From assembly GCF_009687845.1 (NCBI RefSeq), contig NZ_BLAD01000079.1:1-64000 (forward strand): 64,000 nucleotides of DNA. Direction: 5' to 3'. Positions within the stretch are counted from its first letter, which is position 1; every line of letters begins with the position of its first letter. The position numbers and the translations under genes are program-made. Shown piece after piece: positions 3,739 to 56,159 of the stretch. Origin of the DNA: Acrocarpospora corrugata. Its GTDB lineage: Bacteria; Actinomycetota; Actinomycetes; Streptosporangiales; Streptosporangiaceae. The notes below the pieces were generated by a model. It saw only the letters and a program-made list of their open reading frames with translations. It was not told the origin of the DNA and searched no databases.

Positions 3739-6700
3739 CGTTCCGCCTCCTCCAGGATGGCCTCGACGGCCTGGGCGAATTCGGCGACCGTACGCCGGGT
3801 GAAAATGGTGCGGACGGGGATGGTCAGGTCGGCGGCGTGGCGGATGCGGGCGATCACGCGGGTGGCGAGCAGGGAGTGGCCGCCGAGGGTGAAGAAGTCG
3901 TCGCCGGCGCCGACTCGGTCGAGGCCGAGGACGTCGGCCCAGATCTCGGCGACCAGTTCTTCGGCTTCGGAACGTGGGGGAATGTAGGCCGATGGGGAGG
4001 TTGTCGGCGCAGGGAGGGCGTTGCGGTCGAGTTTTCCGTTCGCGGTGAGGGGGAAGCCGTTGACGGTTACCCAATGGGTGGGAAGTAGATGCGGCGGCAA
4101 CGCCTGCTGGGCGTATCGCCGCAGGTCATCGTGGCTGGCACTGCCTGCGATGTACGCGACGAGATCCCCGTCCCGCGTGACGACGACCGCTTGCTCAACT
4201 GCCGGATGGCCAGCCAGGCAGGACTCGATCTCGCCCGGTTCGACCCGATAACCGCGAACCTTGACCTGGTCGTCGAACCGTCCGAGGAACTCCAGCTCGC
4301 CGTTGCGAAGCCACCGAACCCGGTCACCGGTCCGATACACCCGCGAACCCGGCGGCCCGGCGGCGTCGGGGACAAATCGGTCCGCTGTCAGCCGTGCCCG
4401 CCCGAGATATCCCCGCGCGACACCGACACCGCCGATGAGCAGCTCCCCCGCCACCCCGACCGGAACCCGCTCGCCATACTCGTCGACCACCCGAACGGTG
4501 GTCTCCCCGATCGGCCGCCCAATCGGCGGATTCCCCGCCTCCCCGCACAATTCCGCCGCCGTCGCGACGACCGTCGCCTCCGTCGGGCCATACGTGTTGA
4601 CCAGCCGGACCCGATCACCGAACCGCTGCCGCCACCGCGACACAGCCTCGGCCGAAACCTGCTCCCCACCCAGAATGACCAGCCGCAACCCCTCCGGCCA
4701 GGCCACTCCATCAAGATCCCGAACCAGCTCATGCCAGCACGCCGTGGGCAGATCCAGCACCGTGACCCGCCGCCCCCCGGGCGTCCTCAAGAAGTCCGGA
4801 AAACTCCGTCCCCCATCCGGCACCATGACCACCGCGGCCCCCGCCGCCAACGCCGGAAAGATCTCCTCCACATGCGCGTCAAAACTCAACGCCGCAAACT
4901 GCGCAACCCAATCCCCCGGCCCCAGCCCGTACTCCGCCACCATCCACCGCACCCGAGCAGCCACACTCCGCCGCTCAACCACGACACCCTTGGGCACCCC
5001 AGTCGACCCAGACGTATAAATCACATAAGCGGCACCCGACCCCGCGGACGACGTTTCCGGAAATATCAACTCATCCGCTCGCCCACCACCACCCAAACCA
5101 CCCGACTCGACGACCAGCGTCGCCCCGCTGCCACCCGATTCGATGGTCAGCCTCGCCCCGCAGCCACCGGCCAGCCCCGCCTCCCTGCCACCCAAACCAA
5201 CCGACTCGACGGTCAGCCCCGCCTCGCTGTCACCCACGCGACCCGACTCGACGGTCAACCTCGCTTTGCTGTCACGCAGAAGGTAGGCGACTCGATCGTC
5301 GGGATACTCCGGATCAATGGGCAGATAAGCAGCCCCCACCCGCCAGATCCCCAGCAGCGTCGGCACCACCTCAAGCGTCCGACCGAGGCGAACCCCCACC
5401 ACATGCCCCGGTCCAACACCACGCTCGCGCAGCTCTGCGGCAACCTCATCAACACGACGGACGAGATCCCGATAAGTCAGGTGCTGACCATCGCACTCAA
5501 CGGCGACGCAGTCCGGTGCACCGGTCAGCCCAGTGAATTCACCGATGACCCCCGCCCCACTGGTCAGCACGCCCAACTCCGAAGAAATCGTCGGCAAGCC
5601 GGTTTGTTGGTTGTCGAGCTGGATCAGTTCGGGCGTGGGAATGACGGCGAGGCGGCTGATCCTGTTGTGGGGGTGGGTGCTGATTGCGGTCAGGAGGGTG
5701 AGGAAGCGGTCGGTTAGGGCGGTGATGGATTCGGGGGTGAAGAGGTCGGTGTCGTAGGTGAAGGTGAGGCCGGTTTGGGTGGGGCCTTGGTAGATGTCGA
5801 GGGAGATGTCGGTTTTGGCGGTGGCTAGGCCGGAGTCGAAGATTTCTACGGTCAGGTCGGCCAGGCGGGGGCGTTCGGATTGGGTGCGGAGGTACATGAA
5901 CATTGCTTGGAAGGGGGCGCCGAAGGGGAGTTCGCCCTGGTCGTAGGCGCGGAGGGCGGTATTGCGGGTGGTTCGGAGGTGGTCGCGGAAGGGGGTGTGG
6001 CCGGAGATGTCGGCGCGGAGCATGATCAGGCCGGTGAAGTAGCCGATCAGGGGTTCGGTGTCGACGCGGGTGCGGCCGATGATCGGGGTGGCGATGGTGA
6101 TGTCGCGCTGGCCGGAGTGGCGGGCCAGGAGGATCTGGAAGGCCGCGAGGTAGACCATGAAAATGGTGGCGCGTTCCGCCCTGGCCAGGGATTCGAGTGC
6201 GGCGACGAGGTCGGGCGGGATCTCGTGGTGGATCTGGGCGCCTCGGGTGGAGCGGGTAGCCGGGCGAGGGTGGTCGGTGGGGAGCTCCAGGGGCGGGGCG
6301 TCTTTTAGGGCTTCTGTCCAGTACGTCGTGCGACTGGCGGTGGCTTCGTCACGCGAACGGCGTACATGGTCGGCGTAGCGGATGGGGAGGGGTGGGAGGG
6401 GGAACGGGCGTCCGGCGATGAAGGCTTCGTAGCAGTCGGCCAGTTCGCGGAGCAGGATGTCGACCGACCAGCCGTCGGCCACGATGTGGTGCAGGACCAG
6501 GCAGAGCACGTGATCGCCGGGCGCGAGCCGAAACAGGGTGAACCGGGCTACCGGCCCGTCGGCCAGGTCGAAGGGCTGGTTGGCCTGGTCGGCCACCAGA
6601 TCACGGACCGTTTCGATCGTGGCTTCACGCGTGTGGAGCGGGATGTCGTCGAGCACGATGACGCAGGCGGGCGTGCCGTCCTCCTCGGTGAAGCGGCTGC

Positions 6701-6866
6701 GCAGCACGTCATGGCGGGTAACGATCTCGGCCAGCGCGCGCCGCAACTCCGTACAGTCGAGGGCACCGTGGATTCGCAGCGCGATCGGCATGTTGTAGGA
6801 CGCGTCCGCCGGATCGAGACGATGCAGGAACCAAAGGCGTTCCTGGCCGGGAGTGAGCGGGGTCAT
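3723..6866 (-). CDS. Nonribosomal peptide synthetase module C-A-T
   Basis: A 1047-residue single-module NRPS. The C domain has HHIVADG (126-132); the A domain has YTSGSTGVPKG, NTYGPTE and a C-terminal NGK lysine; the carrier serine is ~998 in LGGHSLL. Reading pocket positions by alignment to GrsA gives D-A-E-D-I-G-T-V-V-K; two acidic residues suggest a basic amino acid such as lysine, low confidence. The A domain carries an extra ~60-residue stretch between A2 and A3, several degenerate copies of a LTVES-GxGG unit (DNA about 5050-5270). Codons are C-ending over the C domain, G-ending over most of the A domain, C-ending again at the carrier. ATGA overlap with the gene before it. Confidence 0.93.
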   Translation of the reverse strand: MTPLTPGQERLWFLHRLDPADASYNMPIALRIHGALDCTELRRALAEIVTRHDVLRSRFTEEDGTPACVIVLDDIPLHTREATIETVRDLVADQANQPFDLADGPVARFTLFRLAPGDHVLCLVLHHIVADGWSVDILLRELADCYEAFIAGRPFPLPPLPIRYADHVRRSRDEATASRTTYWTEALKDAPPLELPTDHPRPATRSTRGAQIHHEIPPDLVAALESLARAERATIFMVYLAAFQILLARHSGQRDITIATPIIGRTRVDTEPLIGYFTGLIMLRADISGHTPFRDHLRTTRNTALRAYDQGELPFGAPFQAMFMYLRTQSERPRLADLTVEIFDSGLATAKTDISLDIYQGPTQTGLTFTYDTDLFTPESITALTDRFLTLLTAISTHPHNRISRLAVIPTPELIQLDNQQTGLPTISSELGVLTSGAGVIGEFTGLTGAPDCVAVECDGQHLTYRDLVRRVDEVAAELRERGVGPGHVVGVRLGRTLEVVPTLLGIWRVGAAYLPIDPEYPDDRVAYLLRDSKARLTVESGRVGDSEAGLTVESVGLGGREAGLAGGCGARLTIESGGSGATLVVESGGLGGGGRADELIFPETSSAGSGAAYVIYTSGSTGVPKGVVVERRSVAARVRWMVAEYGLGPGDWVAQFAALSFDAHVEEIFPALAAGAAVVMVPDGGRSFPDFLRTPGGRRVTVLDLPTACWHELVRDLDGVAWPEGLRLVILGGEQVSAEAVSRWRQRFGDRVRLVNTYGPTEATVVATAAELCGEAGNPPIGRPIGETTVRVVDEYGERVPVGVAGELLIGGVGVARGYLGRARLTADRFVPDAAGPPGSRVYRTGDRVRWLRNGELEFLGRFDDQVKVRGYRVEPGEIESCLAGHPAVEQAVVVTRDGDLVAYIAGSASHDDLRRYAQQALPPHLLPTHWVTVNGFPLTANGKLDRNALPAPTTSPSAYIPPRSEAEELVAEIWADVLGLDRVGAGDDFFTLGGHSLLATRVIARIRHAADLTIPVRTIFTRRTVAEFAQAVEAILEEAERCPTP

Positions 6867-9817
6867 GCGTGGCCGCCTCGATCACTGACCACGGCGGCGA
6901 TGCCGGCGATCGTGGGCGTGTCGAAGAAGGCATAGAACGGGACGTCGACGTCAAATCGGTCCCGGATCCTCGCCGCGATCTGGGCGATGGTGAGGGAATG
7001 GCCGCCGAGGTCGAAAAGGCTCTCCTCGGGGTCGATGCCATCCATACCCAACACCTCCGCCCAGATCTCCGCGACAGCGGCTTCCGGCGACACGCCCGTT
7101 GCGGGCGCGGCCGGGGCGGCGGGCTCGTCGTGCCGGGGCAGGGCGGCACGGTCGAGCTTGCCGTTCGGGGTCAGCGGCAGCGCGTCGAGCTCGACGAACG
7201 CGGCGGGCACCATGTACGCGGGCAACTGCCTGGCCAGATGACGCCGCAACTCAGAGCCACCACCGACGGTGTAAGAGACAAGCTTTCCGTCCTGTACGGC
7301 GACCGCCGCCTCCTTCGCGTACGCGAGCAGGCACGCCTCGATCTCGCCGAGTTCGATCCGGTGGCCACGGAGTTTGATCTGATTGTCGGTACGCCCCAGG
7401 AACTCCAGCTCGTCGCCGCGAAGCCGGACGCGGTCGCCGGTCCGGTACATCCGTACCGGTTCCGAGCGGAAACGTTCCGCGGTCAGTTCGGGCCGGTTGA
7501 GATAGCCACGGGCGAGTCCGGCCCCGGCGATGTACAGCTCGCCAGGGACACCGGCGGGGACCGGGGCGAGGTTGTCGTCGAGGATGTGCAGCTGGGTGTT
7601 GGCGAGCGGGCGTCCGATGCTGATCCGTGCGGGATCGGACGGAATGTCGGCGATGGTGGACCAGATGGTGGTCTCGGTCGGGCCATACATGTTGAGTAGC
7701 CGCCCAACCCGGGGCCTGAGCTGCACGGCCAGCGGCAACGGGAGCGCTTCACCCCCGGTCAGAGCGGTTCCGTCGAAGGCGAACCCGGCATCCAGGAGCA
7801 GCCGCCAGGTGGACGGAGTGGCCTGCAGGTGAGTGACCGCGTGCTGCTTTGCGAGTTTCGTCAGAGCCGCGCCATCGGCGGTGTCCGGCTCGGCTGCGAT
7901 GACGACCGAACCTCCCGTGATCAGCGGAAGCCACAGCTCCAACGCGGAGATGTCGAAGGACAGCGAGGTCACAGCCATCCAGACATTTCCCGCTTTGGCG
8001 TCAAGCTCGTCCCGCATCGCCAGCAGCAGGTTGGTCAGCGCACCATGCCCGATCTCAACACCTTTGGGACGACCGGTGGAACCCGACGTGTAGATCACAT
8101 ACGCGAGGTGGTCCGCGGATCCATCAAACGCAGTGGAAGCGAGCTCGCCCAGCCCGGCACCATCGGACGCCGTAGACAGCTCGCCCAACGCGGCAACTTC
8201 CAACGCCGTGAGCGCAGGCTCGTCGAGCCGGACCAGGGTCGCGCCCGTCAGTCGCGTGCCCGGGTCGGCGAGCAGAACCTTCGCGCCCGAGTCGGCCAAG
8301 ATGTAGTCCAACCGCTCGGCTGGGTACGCGGGATCGAGCGGCAGATACGCGGCCCCCGCCTTCCAGCAGGCCAGTACGCCTGCCACCAGCCGCTCCGACC
8401 GTCCGGCGGACAGCGCGACCAGGTCACCGTCCCTGACCCCCGCCGTCCGAAGCCGTTCCGCCAGCTGCCCCGAGAGCAGATCCAACTCGGCATAGCTCAG
8501 CCGGGCATCCCCGCTGACCACCGCGACGGCATCCGGTGCGTCGGCGACCTGCTCCCCAAACAACTCCAGGGCGCTCACCTGCGGGTATGCCGTATCCACC
8601 CCCGCCACGACCGTTCCATCGGCGACATCCAACTCCTGCAACGCCGTGTCCGGATTTTTCGTGACCTGCGCGAGAATTGCCTGCCAATGCGCGGCGATCC
8701 GCTCCACGTCGGCACGAGCGATCGACCTCGGCGGAAACTGGAACATGACGCCGAGCCCATCCGGCCCATCCACCAGGTGAATCCGCAGGGCATTGCGCGC
8801 GGTCTCGTTGAAGACCACCCAATCCACCGCCATCCCCGGCGGCGGCGCGATCCGCCGACGGTAGGTCAGTGACACGGGCGCGAGCGAAACCCCAGGCCGA
8901 AGCCCCGAAACAGCCCGGCCCAGCGGAACTTCGCGAACCCGATATAGCTCCCGCAGATTCGCCCGCACCAACCGGGCGAACTCCGCGAAGCCCATCGCCG
9001 GCGACGGCTCAGAAGCGAACGGCAACTCGTTCACGTACACACCGATATGGCCACGCGCCTCCGCAGGCCGTACCCCAAGATCCAGGGCGGTCACCGGGCG
9101 CTCGTTGCCGTATCTGCGCAGGAGCGCGTGCACGCTCGCGACGACCAGCTCGAACCGCGTCACCCCGAGCCGCTCCGCGGCGTCCCCGAGCACGGATTCG
9201 GGCAGCCGGAACTCGACCGCCTCGCCCTCCTGAACCTCCTGGTCCGGCCGGTCGAACCCGGGCAGAACCACCTCGTCCGGCTCCGCCCACCGCCCCGACC
9301 AGTACGCCCGCGCCGCCGGCACCCCCGCCGCGACCCGCGCCGCCTCCCGATCGGGATCCTCCCCCGGCCCGAACACCGGCAGCTCCGGCGGGAACCCCGC
9401 CACCTCGGCCCGGTAACACTCGGCGAGATCGGCCACGAAGACGTCGGTCGACTGCCCGTCGAAGGCCAGGTGGTGCACCACGACGAGCAGCCGCCCGTCG
9501 TCGAGCAGGCTCAGCCGGGCCAGCGGCCCGCGCTCCAGGTCGAACGGCAGGGCGATCTCCATACCCGGATCCGAACCGAGCTCGACCCGGACCGGTTTCC
9601 CCTCCACCAGGTACGGAACCCCGTCCGACTGCCGGACCGCGGCCCGGAGCATCGGATGCCTGGCCACCACGCGCGCGCACGCGCGGCCGAGCGCCTGAAC
9701 ATCGACCGGACCGGCGAACCGGACCGCGAACGGCATGTGATGCACCGCCCCCAGGTCACTGAGCTGCTCGTTGAACCAGATGCCGCTCTGCGGGACAGAG
9801 ATTCGAACGTGTTCCAT
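6863..9817 (-). CDS. Nonribosomal peptide synthetase module C-A(Gly)-T
   Basis: First gene of the leftward NRPS operon, 984 residues. Domains: C (HHLAFDG, 115-121), A (YTSGSTGRPKG, NMYGPTE), carrier (Ser ~941 in LGGHSLT). Pocket residues read by eye against GrsA are D-I-L-Q-L-G-M-I-W-K, which matches the established glycine code family, so this module most likely adds glycine. There is no MbtH-like gene in the window and no epimerisation or thioesterase domain. The ATG is preceded by a GGGGCGG stretch only; expression probably starts from the AT-richer divergent region just upstream. Its stop overlaps the next start as ATGA. The module assignment is strong; the position in the assembly line is inferred. 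Confidence 0.94.
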   Translation of the reverse strand: MEHVRISVPQSGIWFNEQLSDLGAVHHMPFAVRFAGPVDVQALGRACARVVARHPMLRAAVRQSDGVPYLVEGKPVRVELGSDPGMEIALPFDLERGPLARLSLLDDGRLLVVVHHLAFDGQSTDVFVADLAECYRAEVAGFPPELPVFGPGEDPDREAARVAAGVPAARAYWSGRWAEPDEVVLPGFDRPDQEVQEGEAVEFRLPESVLGDAAERLGVTRFELVVASVHALLRRYGNERPVTALDLGVRPAEARGHIGVYVNELPFASEPSPAMGFAEFARLVRANLRELYRVREVPLGRAVSGLRPGVSLAPVSLTYRRRIAPPPGMAVDWVVFNETARNALRIHLVDGPDGLGVMFQFPPRSIARADVERIAAHWQAILAQVTKNPDTALQELDVADGTVVAGVDTAYPQVSALELFGEQVADAPDAVAVVSGDARLSYAELDLLSGQLAERLRTAGVRDGDLVALSAGRSERLVAGVLACWKAGAAYLPLDPAYPAERLDYILADSGAKVLLADPGTRLTGATLVRLDEPALTALEVAALGELSTASDGAGLGELASTAFDGSADHLAYVIYTSGSTGRPKGVEIGHGALTNLLLAMRDELDAKAGNVWMAVTSLSFDISALELWLPLITGGSVVIAAEPDTADGAALTKLAKQHAVTHLQATPSTWRLLLDAGFAFDGTALTGGEALPLPLAVQLRPRVGRLLNMYGPTETTIWSTIADIPSDPARISIGRPLANTQLHILDDNLAPVPAGVPGELYIAGAGLARGYLNRPELTAERFRSEPVRMYRTGDRVRLRGDELEFLGRTDNQIKLRGHRIELGEIEACLLAYAKEAAVAVQDGKLVSYTVGGGSELRRHLARQLPAYMVPAAFVELDALPLTPNGKLDRAALPRHDEPAAPAAPATGVSPEAAVAEIWAEVLGMDGIDPEESLFDLGGHSLTIAQIAARIRDRFDVDVPFYAFFDTPTIAGIAAVVSDRGGHA

Positions 9818-15132: not shown

Positions 15133-16071
15133 TCAGTCTGTGAGAGATCGGCCGGTCAGGCGGAGGAACACGTCCTCCAGGCCGGCCCGGCGGACGAGGG
15201 CGGTCAGGGGGCGTATGCCCAGTTCGGTCGCGCGGGCCAGGGCCTGTTCGCCGTCGTCGGCGTACCAGAGCAGGCGGTCCGGCAGTACTTCGACCTGTTC
15301 GCCAAGCTCGCGGCCGATCTTCTCGTGTTCGCCCGGTGGGAACCGCAGTTCCAGCACCTCCCGGGTGACATGCCGCTCGATCAGCTCGCGCGGTGACCCT
15401 CCGTCCGCGATGAGCCCCTTGTCCATCACCACCAGCCGATCGCAGAGCTGCTCCGCCTCGTCCATGTAGTGCGTGGTGAGGATCAGCGTCACCCCGTCCT
15501 GCTTCAGCCGGAACAACCGTTCCCACAGCACGTGCCTGGCCTGTGGGTCCAGCCCGGTCGTCGGCTCGTCCAGCAGCAGGATCTCGGGGTCGTTGATCAG
15601 CGCCCTGGCGATGGTGAGCCGCCGCCGCATCCCGCCGGACAGGTTCTCCACCCGTTCCCCGGCCTTGTCCTCCAGCCGGGCGAACGCCAGCAGCTCGCCG
15701 GCCTTCGTTCGGACCGCCCGCCGGGACAGGCCGAAGTACAGCCCGTACACCAGCAGGTTCTCCTCGACGGTGAGCTGGGTGTCGAGGGAGTCGTCCTGGG
15801 GGACGACGCCGAGCCTGGCCCGGACCCGGCGGCCGTCGGCGACCGGGTCCAGGCCGAGGATGCGCAGCGTGCCGGCGGTGGGTGCGGAGACCCCGGCGAG
15901 CATGCGCATGGTGGAGGATTTCCCGGCGCCGTTCGGGCCGAGAAAGCCGAACGCCTCGCCCCGGTGCACCCGGAAGGCCACCCCGGCCACGGCGCGGAAC
16001 GGCGTCCCCTGCCGGTTCCGCGCCGGGTATGTCTTCTCCAGGCCGGTCGCCTCGATGAGCGCCTCAGACAA
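15133..16071 (-). CDS. ABC transporter ATP-binding protein (DrrA/NodI family)
   Basis: 312 residues with Walker A GPNGAGKS, signature LSGGMRRRL, Walker B LLLDEPTTGLDP and the downstream TTHYMDEAEQLCDRL block, typical of the DrrA/NodI ATPases that energise ABC-2 exporters. It should couple ATP hydrolysis to efflux by the two permeases that follow on the same strand. The only in-frame start is TTG at 16071, inside the last codons of the GH13 gene (8-base overlap), so expression appears coupled to a sugar-utilisation operon, unusual for an exporter. No clear ribosome site precedes the TTG. Confidence 0.9.
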   Translation of the reverse strand: MSEALIEATGLEKTYPARNRQGTPFRAVAGVAFRVHRGEAFGFLGPNGAGKSSTMRMLAGVSAPTAGTLRILGLDPVADGRRVRARLGVVPQDDSLDTQLTVEENLLVYGLYFGLSRRAVRTKAGELLAFARLEDKAGERVENLSGGMRRRLTIARALINDPEILLLDEPTTGLDPQARHVLWERLFRLKQDGVTLILTTHYMDEAEQLCDRLVVMDKGLIADGGSPRELIERHVTREVLELRFPPGEHEKIGRELGEQVEVLPDRLLWYADDGEQALARATELGIRPLTALVRRAGLEDVFLRLTGRSLTD

Positions 16072-17596
16072 GCCACACTGCCGTGTCGGTGGGCAGTTCT
16101 TCGCCTTCCAGCGGGCCGCTGGCCAGGAGAACGGAGGTGTGCGGCGGGAGCCGTACCGGCTCGGGACCGAGGTTCACCACGCAGGTGAGGCCGGATTCGC
16201 GGCTGAAGGCGAGGACCTCGGGAGCGGTGTCGAGCCAGGTCAGGGTGCCGTCGCCGAGCTGGTCGCGGCGGATGGCCAGGGCGCTCCGGTAGAGGGTGAG
16301 CATCGAGCCGAGGTCCTGGGTCTGGGCTTCGGCGGTGAGCTTGTTCCACGCCTCGGGCTGGGGCAGCCACGGTTCACCGGCGCCGAAGCCGAACGGCCGT
16401 TCGCCGCCGGACCAGGGCAGCGGAACGCGGCAGCCGTCGCGGCCGGGGATGGTGAAGCCGGAGCGCGACCAGATCGGGTCCTGGCGGAGTTCGCCGGGGA
16501 TGTCGTCGACCTCGGGCAGGCCGAGTTCCTCGCCCTGGTAGATGTAGACGCTGCCGGGCAGCGCCATGGCCAGCAGCGCGGCCGCGCGGGAGCGCCGGTA
16601 GCCGAGCTCCAGGTCGGCGGGGACGCCGTCGCGGCGGGCGCCGTGGTCCCAGGAGGTGTCCTCGCGGCCGTAGCGGGTGACCACCCTGGCCACGTCGTGG
16701 TTGGAGAGCACCCAGGTGGGCGGCGCGCCGAGCGGGATGTGGGTGGTCATCGTCTCCTGGATGGAGCGGCGCAGCGCGGCCGGGTTCCACGGGCAGGCCA
16801 GGAAGTCGAAGTTGAAGGCGGTGTGCAGCTCGTCGGGGCGCAGGTAGCGGGCGAACCGCTCCTGGTCGGGGAACCAGACTTCGCCGATGAAGATGCGCCC
16901 GTCGTACTCCTCGGCCAGGCTGCGCCAGCTCCGGTAGACGTCGTGCACTTCGAGCTGGTCGGTGTATCCGTCGGGGTCGCCGCCGGCGAAGTCCTTGACG
17001 AGTACGGCGGCCGAGTCGATCCGGATGCCGTCCACGCCCCGGTCGAACCAGAAGCGCAGCACGTCGTGGAACTCCTGGTGGACTTCCGGGTTGGTCCAGT
17101 TGAAGTCCGGCTGTTCCGGCGCGAACAGGTGCAGGTACCACTGGCCGTCGGCGACCTGGCTCCAGGCGGGGCCGCCGAAGATGGACTTCCAGTCGCCGGG
17201 TTCGTCCTGGAACCAGAACCGGTTCCTGGCCGCGGAGCCGGGGCCGGCGGCGAGCGCCTCCTGGAACCATTGGCTCTGGTCGGAGCTGTGGTTCGGGACG
17301 ACGTCGATGATGACCTTGATGCCGAGCTCGTGGGCTTCCTGGATGAACTTCTCGGCCTCCTCCAGGGTGCCGAAGGACGGTTCGATGTCGCGGTAGTCCG
17401 CGACGTCGTAGCCGCCGTCCGCCATGGGGGACGGGTACCAGGGGTTGAGCCACACGGCGTTGACACCGAGGTCGGCGAGATACGGCAGGCGACTCCGCAG
17501 GCCGGCGAGATCGCCGATTCCGTCGCCGTTGCCGTCGGCGAAGCTGCGCAGGTAGACCTGGTAAATCGCGGCCCCCCGCCACCACGTTTCGGGCAT
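16064..17596 (-). CDS. GH13 alpha-glucosidase / oligo-1,6-glucosidase type
   Basis: A 510-residue cytoplasmic glycoside hydrolase of family 13. Catalytic residues are readable: nucleophile D194 in GVDGIRIDSA, acid/base E239 in IFIGEVW, and D301 in VLSNHD; DVVPNHSS is conserved region I. No signal peptide, so it acts on imported alpha-glucosides. AAAGGAG lies eleven bases before the ATG. It is the last catabolic gene of the MalR-like operon, 47 bases after the second permease, fitting intracellular cleavage of transported malto-, isomalto- or nigero-oligosaccharides; the exact linkage cannot be told from sequence alone. Confidence 0.93.
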   Translation of the reverse strand: MPETWWRGAAIYQVYLRSFADGNGDGIGDLAGLRSRLPYLADLGVNAVWLNPWYPSPMADGGYDVADYRDIEPSFGTLEEAEKFIQEAHELGIKVIIDVVPNHSSDQSQWFQEALAAGPGSAARNRFWFQDEPGDWKSIFGGPAWSQVADGQWYLHLFAPEQPDFNWTNPEVHQEFHDVLRFWFDRGVDGIRIDSAAVLVKDFAGGDPDGYTDQLEVHDVYRSWRSLAEEYDGRIFIGEVWFPDQERFARYLRPDELHTAFNFDFLACPWNPAALRRSIQETMTTHIPLGAPPTWVLSNHDVARVVTRYGREDTSWDHGARRDGVPADLELGYRRSRAAALLAMALPGSVYIYQGEELGLPEVDDIPGELRQDPIWSRSGFTIPGRDGCRVPLPWSGGERPFGFGAGEPWLPQPEAWNKLTAEAQTQDLGSMLTLYRSALAIRRDQLGDGTLTWLDTAPEVLAFSRESGLTCVVNLGPEPVRLPPHTSVLLASGPLEGEELPTDTAVWLV

Positions 17597-51427: not shown

Positions 51428-51512
51428 CCCAAAGCCGTCAATTGACGATATCTGCACATGGCTCCGGAGCTAGAAGGGTCCAAGACCTTTCAGAACTCTT
51501 GCGGAGGGGGCC

Positions 51513-53675
51513 ATGGACAGAGCAGAGAAGATTGCGGCAATCCGGGCGCGACGGGCGGAGAACGCCACCAGAACCGAGGCCATCGGCACGCATCTGGCCG
51601 ACGTCGAGACCGCGCTGCTCACCCTGGAACGGGTACGCGCGGACCTGCTGGACCGCGTGGGCGAGGAACCCAGAGAACGGCTCTCCGCCCTCGGACCCGG
51701 CCTCCGGGACCTGGCGGACAAGATCGCCCTGGAACGCGCGGCGGTAGACCGGGCACTGGCCCGGCTGCGGCGCGGCACGCTCAACATCGGCGTGGTCGGC
51801 CGGGCCCGGCAGGGCAAGAGCCGCCTCCTGCAGAGCCTGACCGGACTGACCAACCGTGAGATCCCCGACGGTTCCGGCCGGTTCTGCACCGGAGTGCCCA
51901 GCACGATCCGCCACTTCGACGGGCAGACCTACGCCGACGTGTACTACCACTCGGAGCGCTCGTTCGTGGACGAGGTCGTCGGCCTCTACTACGACAGATA
52001 CGGCCTGGGCGCCCGCCCGGTCTCCCCCCGCGCGTTCGGCGCGAGCCCACTGCCGTCCCTCCCCCCGGACCGCGCCAGCAACCCGCAGGCCGAGAGCGCC
52101 TACGGCCACCTGCGCGCCTACCACGACGCCTTTCCCGAGTACGGCCCGCTGATCGGCCGCGCCTCCCCCGAACGGGTCGGCGACGACCGGATCCGCTCCT
52201 TCGTGGCCCAGGACGACCCGGACGGAAACCCGCTGCACGCCTTCCGGGCCGTACGCCGGGTGGAGATCTCCACGAAGTTCCACCAGAGCGACCTGACCGG
52301 AATCGCGGTCATCGACCTGCCGGGCCTCGGCGACACCAACCTCGGCGACTCCCGGGTGCTGCTGGCCGCACTGGAGGACGACGTCGATCTCGTCCTGTTC
52401 GTCCGCCGCCCGAACCCCGAAGGCGACGGCATCCACGAGGTCGACGTCGACCTGTACGGCATCGCCCAGAGCGCCCTGCCCGAGATCGCGATGGAGCGCC
52501 GCTCCTTCATGATCCTCAACCACCGCGCCAGCGTCGACCAGGACAACCTGGCCAACGCCAAGTCCTTTGCCGCCGACCTGGAGAAGTCGCCGATCAGAGT
52601 GGCCGGCGTGCACATCACCGACTGCTCCAAACCCGAGCAGGTAATCGCCGCGTTCGACCCCATCGTCGACTACCTCCTCACCACGATCGACTCCCTGGAC
52701 GAGACGATCATCAGCGAGCGGGTCCGCCGGCGCGGCGAGATCGACCAGGAGGTCCGGCTGCTGATCGAGCAGTCGTCCTTCGTGCACCAGTTCGCCCAGC
52801 CCGGCGACATGTCCAAGCTGGTCTTCCAGGAGCTGTTCCGGCAGACGTACGAGAACCTGGCCGGGGCGCTGGAGGACCTGGTGGGCGAGTTCCGCGCCGA
52901 GCGGGACGCGCCGGAGACCAAGCTCGGCGAAGCCGTGGCCGCGGTCCTCGCGCGGGCCAGGATCGACGACGGGATCCCCGCCGCCGACCAGATCGCCCGC
53001 CGGCGCAACGTGGAGGGCTCCAACATCAAGGCGTTCAGCGGCCTGATGGACGAGGCCCGATCGCATCTGTCCCGCCAGTTCCTGGAGCTGGACGAGTCGC
53101 TCAACGAGACCGTCACCCACATGTGGGCCAGGCTCGCCACGGCGCTCCGCGACCCCGGCGAACTCGGGCACCTGTCGGCCCAGGAGGGACGCGCGTTCCT
53201 GGCCGACCTGTCGGGGCAGATCGGCCAGGTCCGCCTGCACGGCCCCAGCGAGATCCGGTACGCGCTGGACATCGTGCTCAACTTCGGCCTGTCCTACCGC
53301 GGCTTCTTCCAGCACCGCATCCGCCCCTGCCTGGACGGAATGTCCGCCGACAACCCCGAGACGGTACGCCCGGACGGCGACTCCTCCCCCAAGGACGTGC
53401 GCGAATACCTCGACATCGCCTACCAGGAAGCCCTCTACCGCTGCGAGGAGGCCCTGTCCGGGCTGCTGTCGGAACCCAACAGCGCGGTCTTCGCGATCGT
53501 CGAGGAGTTCCGCGACCGGGTGCTGCGCTCGCGCCGTACGGCCGAGGAATGGGACGCCCTCTACTGGCGGCACCGATCCGATGTCTGGTCGGGCGAGTTC
53601 GACGCGCTGGCCGCCGAGACCGTGCACCTGCAGATGTGGAACGAGGCCATCGAGCGATTGAACACGATGCTATGA
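51513..53675 (+). CDS. Large GTPase of a three-gene double-GTPase operon (dynamin-like)
   Basis: 720 residues. After an ~85-residue helical N-terminus comes a P-loop GVVGRARQGKS (93-103), a probable switch I threonine, G3 motif DLPG (268-271) and LVLFVRR, i.e. a TRAFAC/dynamin-like G domain; the C-terminal ~400 residues are helical without membrane segments. The NKxD-type motif is not canonical (ILNHRAS). It is followed by a second GTPase and a membrane protein, each joined by ATGA. This matches the idea of paired GTPases (DO-GTPase) in conflict or stress systems; action is unproven. Confidence 0.85.
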   Translation: MDRAEKIAAIRARRAENATRTEAIGTHLADVETALLTLERVRADLLDRVGEEPRERLSALGPGLRDLADKIALERAAVDRALARLRRGTLNIGVVGRARQGKSRLLQSLTGLTNREIPDGSGRFCTGVPSTIRHFDGQTYADVYYHSERSFVDEVVGLYYDRYGLGARPVSPRAFGASPLPSLPPDRASNPQAESAYGHLRAYHDAFPEYGPLIGRASPERVGDDRIRSFVAQDDPDGNPLHAFRAVRRVEISTKFHQSDLTGIAVIDLPGLGDTNLGDSRVLLAALEDDVDLVLFVRRPNPEGDGIHEVDVDLYGIAQSALPEIAMERRSFMILNHRASVDQDNLANAKSFAADLEKSPIRVAGVHITDCSKPEQVIAAFDPIVDYLLTTIDSLDETIISERVRRRGEIDQEVRLLIEQSSFVHQFAQPGDMSKLVFQELFRQTYENLAGALEDLVGEFRAERDAPETKLGEAVAAVLARARIDDGIPAADQIARRRNVEGSNIKAFSGLMDEARSHLSRQFLELDESLNETVTHMWARLATALRDPGELGHLSAQEGRAFLADLSGQIGQVRLHGPSEIRYALDIVLNFGLSYRGFFQHRIRPCLDGMSADNPETVRPDGDSSPKDVREYLDIAYQEALYRCEEALSGLLSEPNSAVFAIVEEFRDRVLRSRRTAEEWDALYWRHRSDVWSGEFDALAAETVHLQMWNEAIERLNTML

Positions 53676-54694
53676 ACAAGAACACGAGTCTCCGGGACAC
53701 GCTCTTCGGCCCGCGCGGCGAGGACGCGATCATCGACGTGACCATGCTGGGCGCGGTGGGTGTCGGCAAGACGACCCTGCTCGCCTCCATGTACGAACGC
53801 TTCGGGTCGGTGATCGGCGGCACCGACCTGGCCGTCGGGCCCGCCGACCGCGGCACCACCGTGGTCCTGGCGGGATACATCAACGATCTGCGCCGGGTGA
53901 CCAGCACGGTGCGCGCCCAGGACGGCCTGGCCGGCACCGGCGACGTGCGCGAGTACCTCTTCAAGGTGGGGCGGAAGGGACGAGAGCCCCTCTTCGACCT
54001 GCGCTTCACCGACTATCCCGGGAAATATCTCATCAACCCGAACGCGGACGGCGGCGACAAGCTCGGCCGCGCTCTCAACCGCGCGGATGTGGTGGTCGTC
54101 GCCATCGACACGCCCTCGCTGATGGAGCGGCAGCGCAGGTTCCACGATCTCATCAACACGCCGATGCTGGTCAACGACATGATCATGCGGATGACCGAGC
54201 GGGACACGCCGCGTCTGATCATCCTCGCGCCGCTCAAGTGCGAACGCTGGGTGGCCTCTCCGGAGGGCGCGCAGCAACTCGCCGACCGGGTCCACGAGGC
54301 GTACCGCCCGCTGCTGGACCAGCTCGGCAGCCAGACGCTCCGGGCCCGGACCGCCTGCGTGCTGGCCCCCGTCCAGACCGTCGGGTCGGTGGTGTTCAGC
54401 CGGTTGGAGGAGGACAGCTCCGGACATCCGATCTTCCATTTCCGGCTGAAGAAGGCCGGGCTGGCGTACGCGCCGATGGACACCGACCAGTTGCTGCGGT
54501 ACTCGCTGCGGTTCATCGTCAACAAGTACCGCTCCAGCGAGCGGGGACTGGTCCGAGCCGTCTGGGAGCGGGTGATCGGCACGGACGAGGCGCTCGTCCG
54601 GGCCGTCGAGGAGTTCTCGAACGGCTGCAAGACCACCGGTGGCTTCGCCGTCCTGCAAGATCACCCGCTGCTGGTGCCGGGACGCCAGCCATGA
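53672..54694 (+). CDS. Second GTPase of the double-GTPase operon
   Basis: 340 residues with P-loop GAVGVGKT (27-34), a G3-like DYPG (114-117), and VVVVAIDTPS; the NKxD position is replaced by LAPLKCE, as in several atypical GTPases. It resembles the DO-GTPase2 type as I recall it. Its start is inside the stop of the first GTPase (ATGA), implying stoichiometric synthesis. The two G domains are unrelated in detail, so they probably work as sensor and partner rather than as duplicates. Confidence 0.82.
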   Translation: MNKNTSLRDTLFGPRGEDAIIDVTMLGAVGVGKTTLLASMYERFGSVIGGTDLAVGPADRGTTVVLAGYINDLRRVTSTVRAQDGLAGTGDVREYLFKVGRKGREPLFDLRFTDYPGKYLINPNADGGDKLGRALNRADVVVVAIDTPSLMERQRRFHDLINTPMLVNDMIMRMTERDTPRLIILAPLKCERWVASPEGAQQLADRVHEAYRPLLDQLGSQTLRARTACVLAPVQTVGSVVFSRLEEDSSGHPIFHFRLKKAGLAYAPMDTDQLLRYSLRFIVNKYRSSERGLVRAVWERVIGTDEALVRAVEEFSNGCKTTGGFAVLQDHPLLVPGRQP

Positions 54695-55950
54695 CCGTGT
54701 CCTGGTATCTGAGCTCGCGGGGGCGCCGCACGACCGAGGACTACGAATGGAAGACGCTGGGCGGGCCGCCGGTCTCGGCGCTGCGGATCATCGACGACGG
54801 GTTCGACGGCATCCCGCTGAACAAGCTCGTCGACGAGGAGAAGCCGGGGCTCGTTCTGCTGACCGACGGGAGCGGGCGGACCGTCCTGCTGGTGACGGGG
54901 CTGATGGCGGCGGCCCGCCCCGCCGACTTCCGCGGCCGGGCGATCCGCACCCTGCTGCTCGGCGTCGCCCGCCCGGAGGACGACCTCGGCCCGCTGGTCA
55001 AAGTGGCCGCGCGGGCCCTGCGCGGCACGCTGGAGGATGATCTGCCGATCTCGTACGGATCGGTCGCCACGGGCGGCTTCACCCTGGATCCGGCGGCCTG
55101 GACGGCGTTCCTGGCCGGAGCCGAGCAGCCGGCCGACACCACCTCGCCCGAGAATCGCCCGCGCCTGGACCCCGACACCGCCGAGTGGCGCGACCGAGTC
55201 GCCGACGAACTGCTCCAACGGCACGCCGAGGGCGGGATCACCCGCTCCAGGAACCAGGTCGTCCTGCTGCGGACGAGGCTGCCCAGCCGCCCGGTGATCT
55301 ACCGGCTGAAGATCTGGCGCTGCCTCTCCGACGTGGCCGAAACCTCGCTGTCCCGCGACGAGCCGACCGTCAATCCGATCAACGGCCTGGTCCGGGACGC
55401 CGCGGGGAGCGCGGTGCGGGCGCTGGACGGGCTCCGGCGTCACGTCTTCTTCACCGGCTCCTTCGTCGCCGTCCTGGCCGCCGCCATCCTGATCATCGTG
55501 AACGCGGGCCAGGACCCGGACCCCAAGCCCCCGGACGCGACGCCCGCCACCCCGAAGCCGAGTCCCACCACCGCGTTCGCCTGGGCGAGCCCCGGCACCT
55601 GGGCTTTCACCGCCCCCGCCGTGGAGCCGGCGGATCCCGCGCCCGGCACCGAATTCGAGGCCACCTGGCTGGTCGTCAACACCGGAACCACCGAATGGCG
55701 TAATCACCAGCTGGTCATGTCCGCCCAGACCAAGCCCAACTCGCCGGCCCCTTGCGCGACCGAACCCAGCGTGGCGATCCCGCCGCTCAGGCCCGGCGCC
55801 GTCCACCTGGTCAGCGTCAAAGGAAGGGCTCCCAAGGCCGCCGGCGAGAAATGCACATCCGTCTGGCGACTCGAAGACAACGAGCACAGGAGTCTGCCGA
55901 CATTCGCCTCCCAGCCGCGGCTCCTGATGTCGATAACCGCAGCGGGCTAG
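54691..55950 (+). CDS. Membrane protein with C-terminal NBR1-Ig-like domain, partner of the GTPases
   Basis: 419 residues. The ~250-residue cytoplasmic part has no clear family; one membrane helix (~250-272, FFTGSFVAVLAAAILIIVNAG) is followed by a Pro/Thr linker and an extracytoplasmic domain (~290-415) with PGTEFEATWLVVNTGTTEW, the pattern of NBR1/FW Ig-like domains, and two cysteines that could pair. It could anchor the GTPases to the membrane and sense an outside ligand. Last gene of the operon. Confidence 0.8.
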   Translation: MTVSWYLSSRGRRTTEDYEWKTLGGPPVSALRIIDDGFDGIPLNKLVDEEKPGLVLLTDGSGRTVLLVTGLMAAARPADFRGRAIRTLLLGVARPEDDLGPLVKVAARALRGTLEDDLPISYGSVATGGFTLDPAAWTAFLAGAEQPADTTSPENRPRLDPDTAEWRDRVADELLQRHAEGGITRSRNQVVLLRTRLPSRPVIYRLKIWRCLSDVAETSLSRDEPTVNPINGLVRDAAGSAVRALDGLRRHVFFTGSFVAVLAAAILIIVNAGQDPDPKPPDATPATPKPSPTTAFAWASPGTWAFTAPAVEPADPAPGTEFEATWLVVNTGTTEWRNHQLVMSAQTKPNSPAPCATEPSVAIPPLRPGAVHLVSVKGRAPKAAGEKCTSVWRLEDNEHRSLPTFASQPRLLMSITAAG

Positions 55951-56159
55951 CCCCCTTCGTTGCGAAACCCCGCAACGACTCATCTCATCGGGCGCAAGAA
56001 TCTGCGTGACCATCCGCAGGTCGGTTGCAAAGGCGCGAAACTATCTCGCAGAGACCTTGTGGAACGGGGCACAACCGGCCTACTGTCACCTCACCCTCAT
56101 GGTGTTCACCGCCGCGAGCGCCGTCAGGGTGCTCACCCCCCGAGAGAAACGAGCAGACG

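Follow-up and report, generated by a model that had tools for sequence, protein, structure and literature searches.

How far three overlapping genes of Acrocarpospora corrugata (contig NZ_BLAD01000079.1, assembly GCF_009687845.1) make up a single molecular system, and what such a system might do at the membrane, is the question raised by the window analysed here, by which the whole stretch of 64,000 nucleotides is meant. A preliminary description had proposed that two ATGA start-stop junctions couple a dynamin-like GTPase (gene A), an atypical GTPase (gene B) and a single-pass protein with an NBR1-type immunoglobulin (Ig) domain (gene C); the reading frames and overlaps were recovered at the same positions on the + strand, the named motifs are present, and Pfam assigns Dynamin_N, DO-GTPase2 and N_BRCA1_IG to the three products, respectively (Table 1). 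As judged from sequence, A-B-C is a real, conserved and apparently undescribed three-gene unit; the arrangement is not due to chance, since the same order recurs in many unrelated genomes, and the earlier remark that no study of this exact trio was known holds for open-access full texts, in which no description of it was found (most subscription papers lie outside this set). A scan of the locus for sigma-70 promoters, which is uninformative for an actinobacterium, returned none.

Table 1. Features of the A-B-C locus in window coordinates.
Feature	Position	Strand	Basis
Cassette extent	51430..55991	n/a	breakpoints of homology to trio-less congener slots
Gene A, dynamin-like GTPase, 720 aa	51513..53675	+	Dynamin_N
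A P-loop GRARQGKS	51798-51821	+	sequence motif
A DLPG (G3)	52314-52325	+	sequence motif
ATGA start-stop overlap A/B	53672..53675	+	
Gene B, DO-GTPase2-family GTPase, 340 aa	53672..54694	+	PF19993
B P-loop GAVGVGKT	53750-53773	+	sequence motif
B DYPG (DxxG)	54011-54022	+	sequence motif
B KCE of PLKCE, at place of NKxD	54236-54244	+	alignment
ATGA start-stop overlap B/C	54691..54694	+	
Gene C, single-pass membrane protein, 419 aa, predicted N-in/C-out	54691..55950	+	
C conserved N-terminal domain, predicted cytosolic, ~140 aa (RGR..DY, D.EKP, GR.IR)	54691..55110	+	alignments
C TM helix, residues 252-270	55444..55500	+	hydropathy scan
C NBR1-type Ig (FW) domain, residues 317-399	55639..55887	+	PF16158, PDB 4ole

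The two GTPases belong to different families. A barely exceeds the Dynamin_N cut-off (E 2.9e-6, 27.8 bits; cut-off 27), and the defining elements of a dynamin GTPase domain (G1, G2 Thr and G3 DxPG) are found in it, with the G1, G2 and G3 residues, including the G2 Thr and G3 DLPG, invariant in an alignment of 11 homologues; it has no transmembrane (TM) helix (maximum hydropathy window 1.27). B passes the curated cut-off of 27 for DO-GTPase2 (E 7.5e-8, 32.8 bits), as does Nostoc B (35.9 bits); the B protein of a more distant trio member, L013, scores 17.9 bits, below that cut-off. The link previously drawn to the DO-GTPase literature is sound in that B matches DO-GTPase2, for which a role in conflict systems has been proposed (PMC7159879), although the accompanying notion of paired DO-GTPases fails, as only B falls in that family and A is dynamin-like, and the trio is therefore not a DO-GTPase pair. 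The canonical NKxD motif is absent from both proteins, as had been observed: at the expected G4 position A keeps only an invariant N336, and B has a PLKCE-type motif (KCE in nine of 11 aligned rows, RCE in one and KGE in one). This absence alone is, however, no proof of the unusual nucleotide use that had been read into it.

Gene C encodes a single TM window by hydropathy scan, at a position kept in all homologues, and an Arg pair ahead of the helix suggests an N-in topology. A common N-terminal domain, followed by a TM helix lying towards the C-terminal end, is shared by 10 aligned C proteins; it has no Pfam match in the window's C or its homologues, and the region amounts to a conserved domain that Pfam lacks. 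The outer domain matches N_BRCA1_IG (E 1.3e-10, 42.2 bits; curated cut-off of 28 passed) and human NBR1 (E 1.4e-4). That this Ig domain is the core or defining sensor of the system, as first suggested, now seems very improbable: the window's C has it, Pfam recognises it in L012, and L010 and L011 have an ectodomain that can be aligned, but the C proteins of Nonomuraea, G087, and Streptomyces-like and Nostoc relatives lack it. Among 18 sequences, the tail beyond the helix measures 0-4 residues in ten, 10 in one, 30-60 in three and 137-155 in four, these last being the Acrocarpospora sequences, to which the Ig-type ectodomain is confined. Because the tails outside Acrocarpospora lack an Ig ectodomain, and most are 0-4 residues long, the domain is accessory; on the aligned sequences, the core of C is the N-terminal domain plus the C-terminal TM helix, with the Ig domain an Acrocarpospora add-on.

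Conservation of the gene order was sought in other genomes. Of the four other Acrocarpospora genomes, three have B at ~70% identity, in each case preceded by A and followed by C, so that the trio is present in four of five genomes of the genus; G087, from another genus of the family, has A at 27% identity, B at 23% and a C-like gene that ends shortly past the TM helix. A profile search with A across 395 genomes of the class gave five strong matches besides the window's own (6/395 with it): three genomes (G394, G268 and G332) have A-B-C; in G371, A-B lies at a contig end and C at the start of another contig; and in G317, two DO-GTPase-like genes are opposite to A and nothing matches C. The same search of 247 g87 genomes gave seven further matches (E <= 1e-187), all with A-B-C, a strong A match being present in 8/247. 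In these two unbiased searches, 11 of 12 strong non-own matches are followed by B and then C, collinear and on one strand (with one of the 11 divided between contig ends), so that neither of the two objections foreseen earlier, rare adjacency elsewhere or a housekeeping role for one of the GTPases, was borne out. Two single-locus observations may be recorded here: in G317 (L046 4185-10224), the two DO-GTPase-like genes that the A-type dynamin faces are consecutive, and downstream lie a protein of unknown family and a WD40-looking repeat protein; and A and B of G532 (L101 about 6430-7807) are separated by an opposite-strand ORF judged by eye to be an IS110-type transposase, B and C keeping intact frames.

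The trio also occurs in Nonomuraea gerenzanensis, on a Streptomyces aurantiacus plasmid, and on plasmids of Nostoc carneum and Aulosira laxa, whose loci are near-identical. Other cyanobacterial A genes keep different company: on a Stanieria plasmid the next gene is DO-GTPase1/2-like, below both cut-offs, and there is no C; on a Nostoc sp. ATCC 53789 plasmid two DO-GTPase-like genes stand beside A on the opposite strand; on a Pseudanabaena plasmid A lies in two matching pieces with internal stops; and neither B nor C was seen at the A matches of two Calothrix plasmids and an Anabaena plasmid. A C-profile search of a phylum-wide sample of 396 genomes added no further member. In the 394 class genomes other than the window's, four have a C match (E <= 1e-20), every one of them belonging to the five that have an A match (E <= 1e-70; hypergeometric P 5e-9), and pairwise distances over 18 loci correlate at 0.98 for A-B, 0.95 for A-C and 0.94 for B-C, which is the joint-inheritance expectation for any co-inherited operon and does not by itself imply physical contact. 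By these comparisons, the three genes share their inheritance, with a scattered occurrence in soil actinobacteria and on some plasmids of cyanobacteria.

Comparison with congeners delimits the cassette. Homology by blast to A. pleiomorpha (G001) extends up to 51429 and resumes from 55992, and to the trio-less G003 up to 51422 and again from 55993; the cassette is therefore barely larger than the three genes. Its slot lies between the gene for a conserved 90-aa membrane protein and one for a beta-helix protein, and holds in G001 (L120 2796-4015) about 1.2 kb with a RelE-like/XRE-like, toxin-antitoxin-like pair, and in G003 (L121 2234-4322) about 2.1 kb encoding an HExxH protein of 627 aa, both identities being read from sequence. 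The trio of G001 itself lies on a contig other than that of the slot, trio flanks differ from congener to congener, and no direct repeats of at least 8 bases were reported to bound the cassette. No relatives of A were found in viral contigs and phage records.

This distribution bears on whether the trio might be a dynamin module that serves filamentous bacteria in cell division or sporulation. Dynamins act in sporulation septation in Streptomyces, and the trio is hosted by actinobacteria that are filamentous or form spores and by filamentous cyanobacteria; most of their relatives, however, do without the trio, it occurs on plasmids, and no division genes recur as conserved neighbours at the loci examined, which leaves this explanation a slight chance at best.

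The search for nearby effector domains, as had been advised, gave a divided answer. CHAT-domain proteins adjoin the trio at four Nonomuraea/Streptomyces-type loci (Nonomuraea, G559, G644 and G652), and in Nonomuraea (L048 106-6923) two TPR-CHAT genes lie directly upstream, the nearer overlapping A by ATGA, but no CHAT neighbour was seen at 11 of the 15 actinobacterial loci checked, and none of the many CHAT genes of Acrocarpospora lies beside the trio. A CHAT gene lies <10 kb from A in three of nine g87 genomes with one to six CHAT genes each (P 2e-5 under a uniform-placement model, in a post hoc test made after the neighbours had been seen, real gene placement being non-uniform). A TIR/SEFIR protein lies downstream in G691, and in G559 PycTM and CATRA genes lie upstream besides CHAT; the remaining trio loci have ordinary neighbours. 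Past C, two Streptomyces-type loci (L043 11268-11728 and L054 13098-13517) have a possible fourth gene, whose two products resemble each other on inspection.

The sequences themselves show that the genes belong to three families and are coupled, that their order is kept and they are inherited together, that C has a single TM helix, that the cassette sits in a variable slot, that the trio occurs patchily and that some loci have CHAT neighbours; complex formation, the order of action, membrane remodelling and an immune purpose are what we infer from them. We give an even chance to the reading that A, B and C form one unit at the inner membrane face, a horizontally mobile accessory system for conflict or membrane damage. 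C would be anchored by its C-terminal TM helix and present its conserved N-terminal domain to the cytosol, where B, a putative DO-GTPase2-type switch, would dock on it; the nucleotide state of B would then govern recruitment or assembly of A, which may remodel, seal or disrupt the membrane. In some genomes the unit may be wired to CHAT caspase-like proteases, and in Acrocarpospora C would carry its additional outer NBR1-type Ig domain. The case for interaction is one of linkage; the AF2 models from two-row alignments (pLDDT 38 for C; 37 for A, mostly helical outside the GTPase core) are unusable.

An immune function is the leading reading of the trio, at about even chances. It has to be weighed against membrane maintenance, in which C and B would sense envelope damage from antibiotics or pore formers and A would seal or stabilise the membrane. 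A is dynamin-like and C membrane-anchored, the outer Ig domain of Acrocarpospora could touch the wall, membrane surveillance against antibiotics is described for the Bacillus subtilis dynamin DynA (PMC8844932), and in Gammaproteobacteria psp envelope-stress operons can include DO-GTPase genes (PMC11237479). Maintenance is nonetheless rather unlikely given the rare and patchy occurrence of the trio, its presence on plasmids, the toxin-antitoxin-like pair in the slot of a congener and the CHAT genes near some loci. The specific proposal of an undescribed immune or membrane-damage system conserved between multicellular actinobacteria and cyanobacteria, in which a dynamin-like GTPase is licensed by a DO-GTPase2 switch tethered at the membrane, with CHAT coupling in some cases and an interchangeable outer domain, falls a little short of an even chance. 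If it is true, a dynamin and a DO-GTPase of signalling type, two separate classes of GTPase, would be brought together in a single minimal membrane system, and the DO-GTPase family would gain a plausible membrane effector; the trio is small enough for direct testing in laboratory Streptomyces.

Among known systems, operons with a dynamin-like GTPase are found in the Leo/Eleos systems (PADLOC LeoA, LeoBC), to which the trio gave weak matches in PADLOC 2.0.0 (E 0.0021 for LeoBC, the best, and 0.057); it matches no anti-phage system catalogued there. To our knowledge, Leo/Eleos systems have no DO-GTPase2 or C-type protein. DynA of B. subtilis resembles A as a dynamin-like GTPase with a possible membrane or anti-phage role, a delay of phage lysis being described for it (PMC8844932), and paired dynamin-like protein operons (PMC6104087) differ from the trio in that the partner there is a second dynamin, whereas those of A are a DO-GTPase2 and a membrane anchor. 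A recurrent Streptosporangiaceae pair (L014 9403-11704, L015 about 15195-17426, L016 7899-10077) also sets a DO-GTPase2-like gene beside a single-pass protein, termed 'WPFLVARGRR', which has an RGR..Y N-terminus and no Pfam match; unlike the trio, the pair has no dynamin and its GTPase itself has a hydrophobic N-terminus. Kinship between this partner and the N-terminal domain of C is only suggestive (hhalign pairwise E 0.017, probability 2.6%), and the other hhalign profiles compared gave nothing significant.

The closest comparison is with the DO-GTPase/GAP1 systems (Kaur et al. 2020, PMC7159879), a family defined by a Walker-B Glu and a GAP1 partner and proposed to act in membrane-proximal conflict systems, in a paper whose main text mentions neither dynamin nor NBR1. 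The trio shares with them a DO-GTPase2 homologue, membrane-proximal parts, multicellular hosts and a conserved core with a variable outer domain; it differs in having no GAP1, a dynamin in the core, one DO-GTPase and an N-terminal domain of C that is outside Pfam. Could it be a divergent but true GAP1-type system, with the N-terminal domain of C a GAP1-N relative? A DO-GTPase2 does stand beside a conserved downstream partner, and GAP1-N2 proteins may have C-terminal TM helices (PMC7159879), but C has no GAP1 Pfam match, its comparison with GAP1-N2 is not significant (hhalign E 0.62), and the residue after the DxxG of B, Glu in Nostoc (DPSGE), is K, G, A or R in actinobacterial B, which thus appears to lack the Walker-B Glu, equating this position with that of PMC7159879 being our own reading; the idea is accordingly given scant probability. 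The GAP1-N2 genes of the genome lie not at the trio but on contigs C42 and C73, where they are close to DO-GTPase2 genes. Since GAP1 is missing and actinobacterial B appears to be without the Walker-B Glu, the trio is, on present sequence comparisons, not a canonical DO-GTPase/GAP1 system but a presumed functional variant of DO-GTPase-centred systems.
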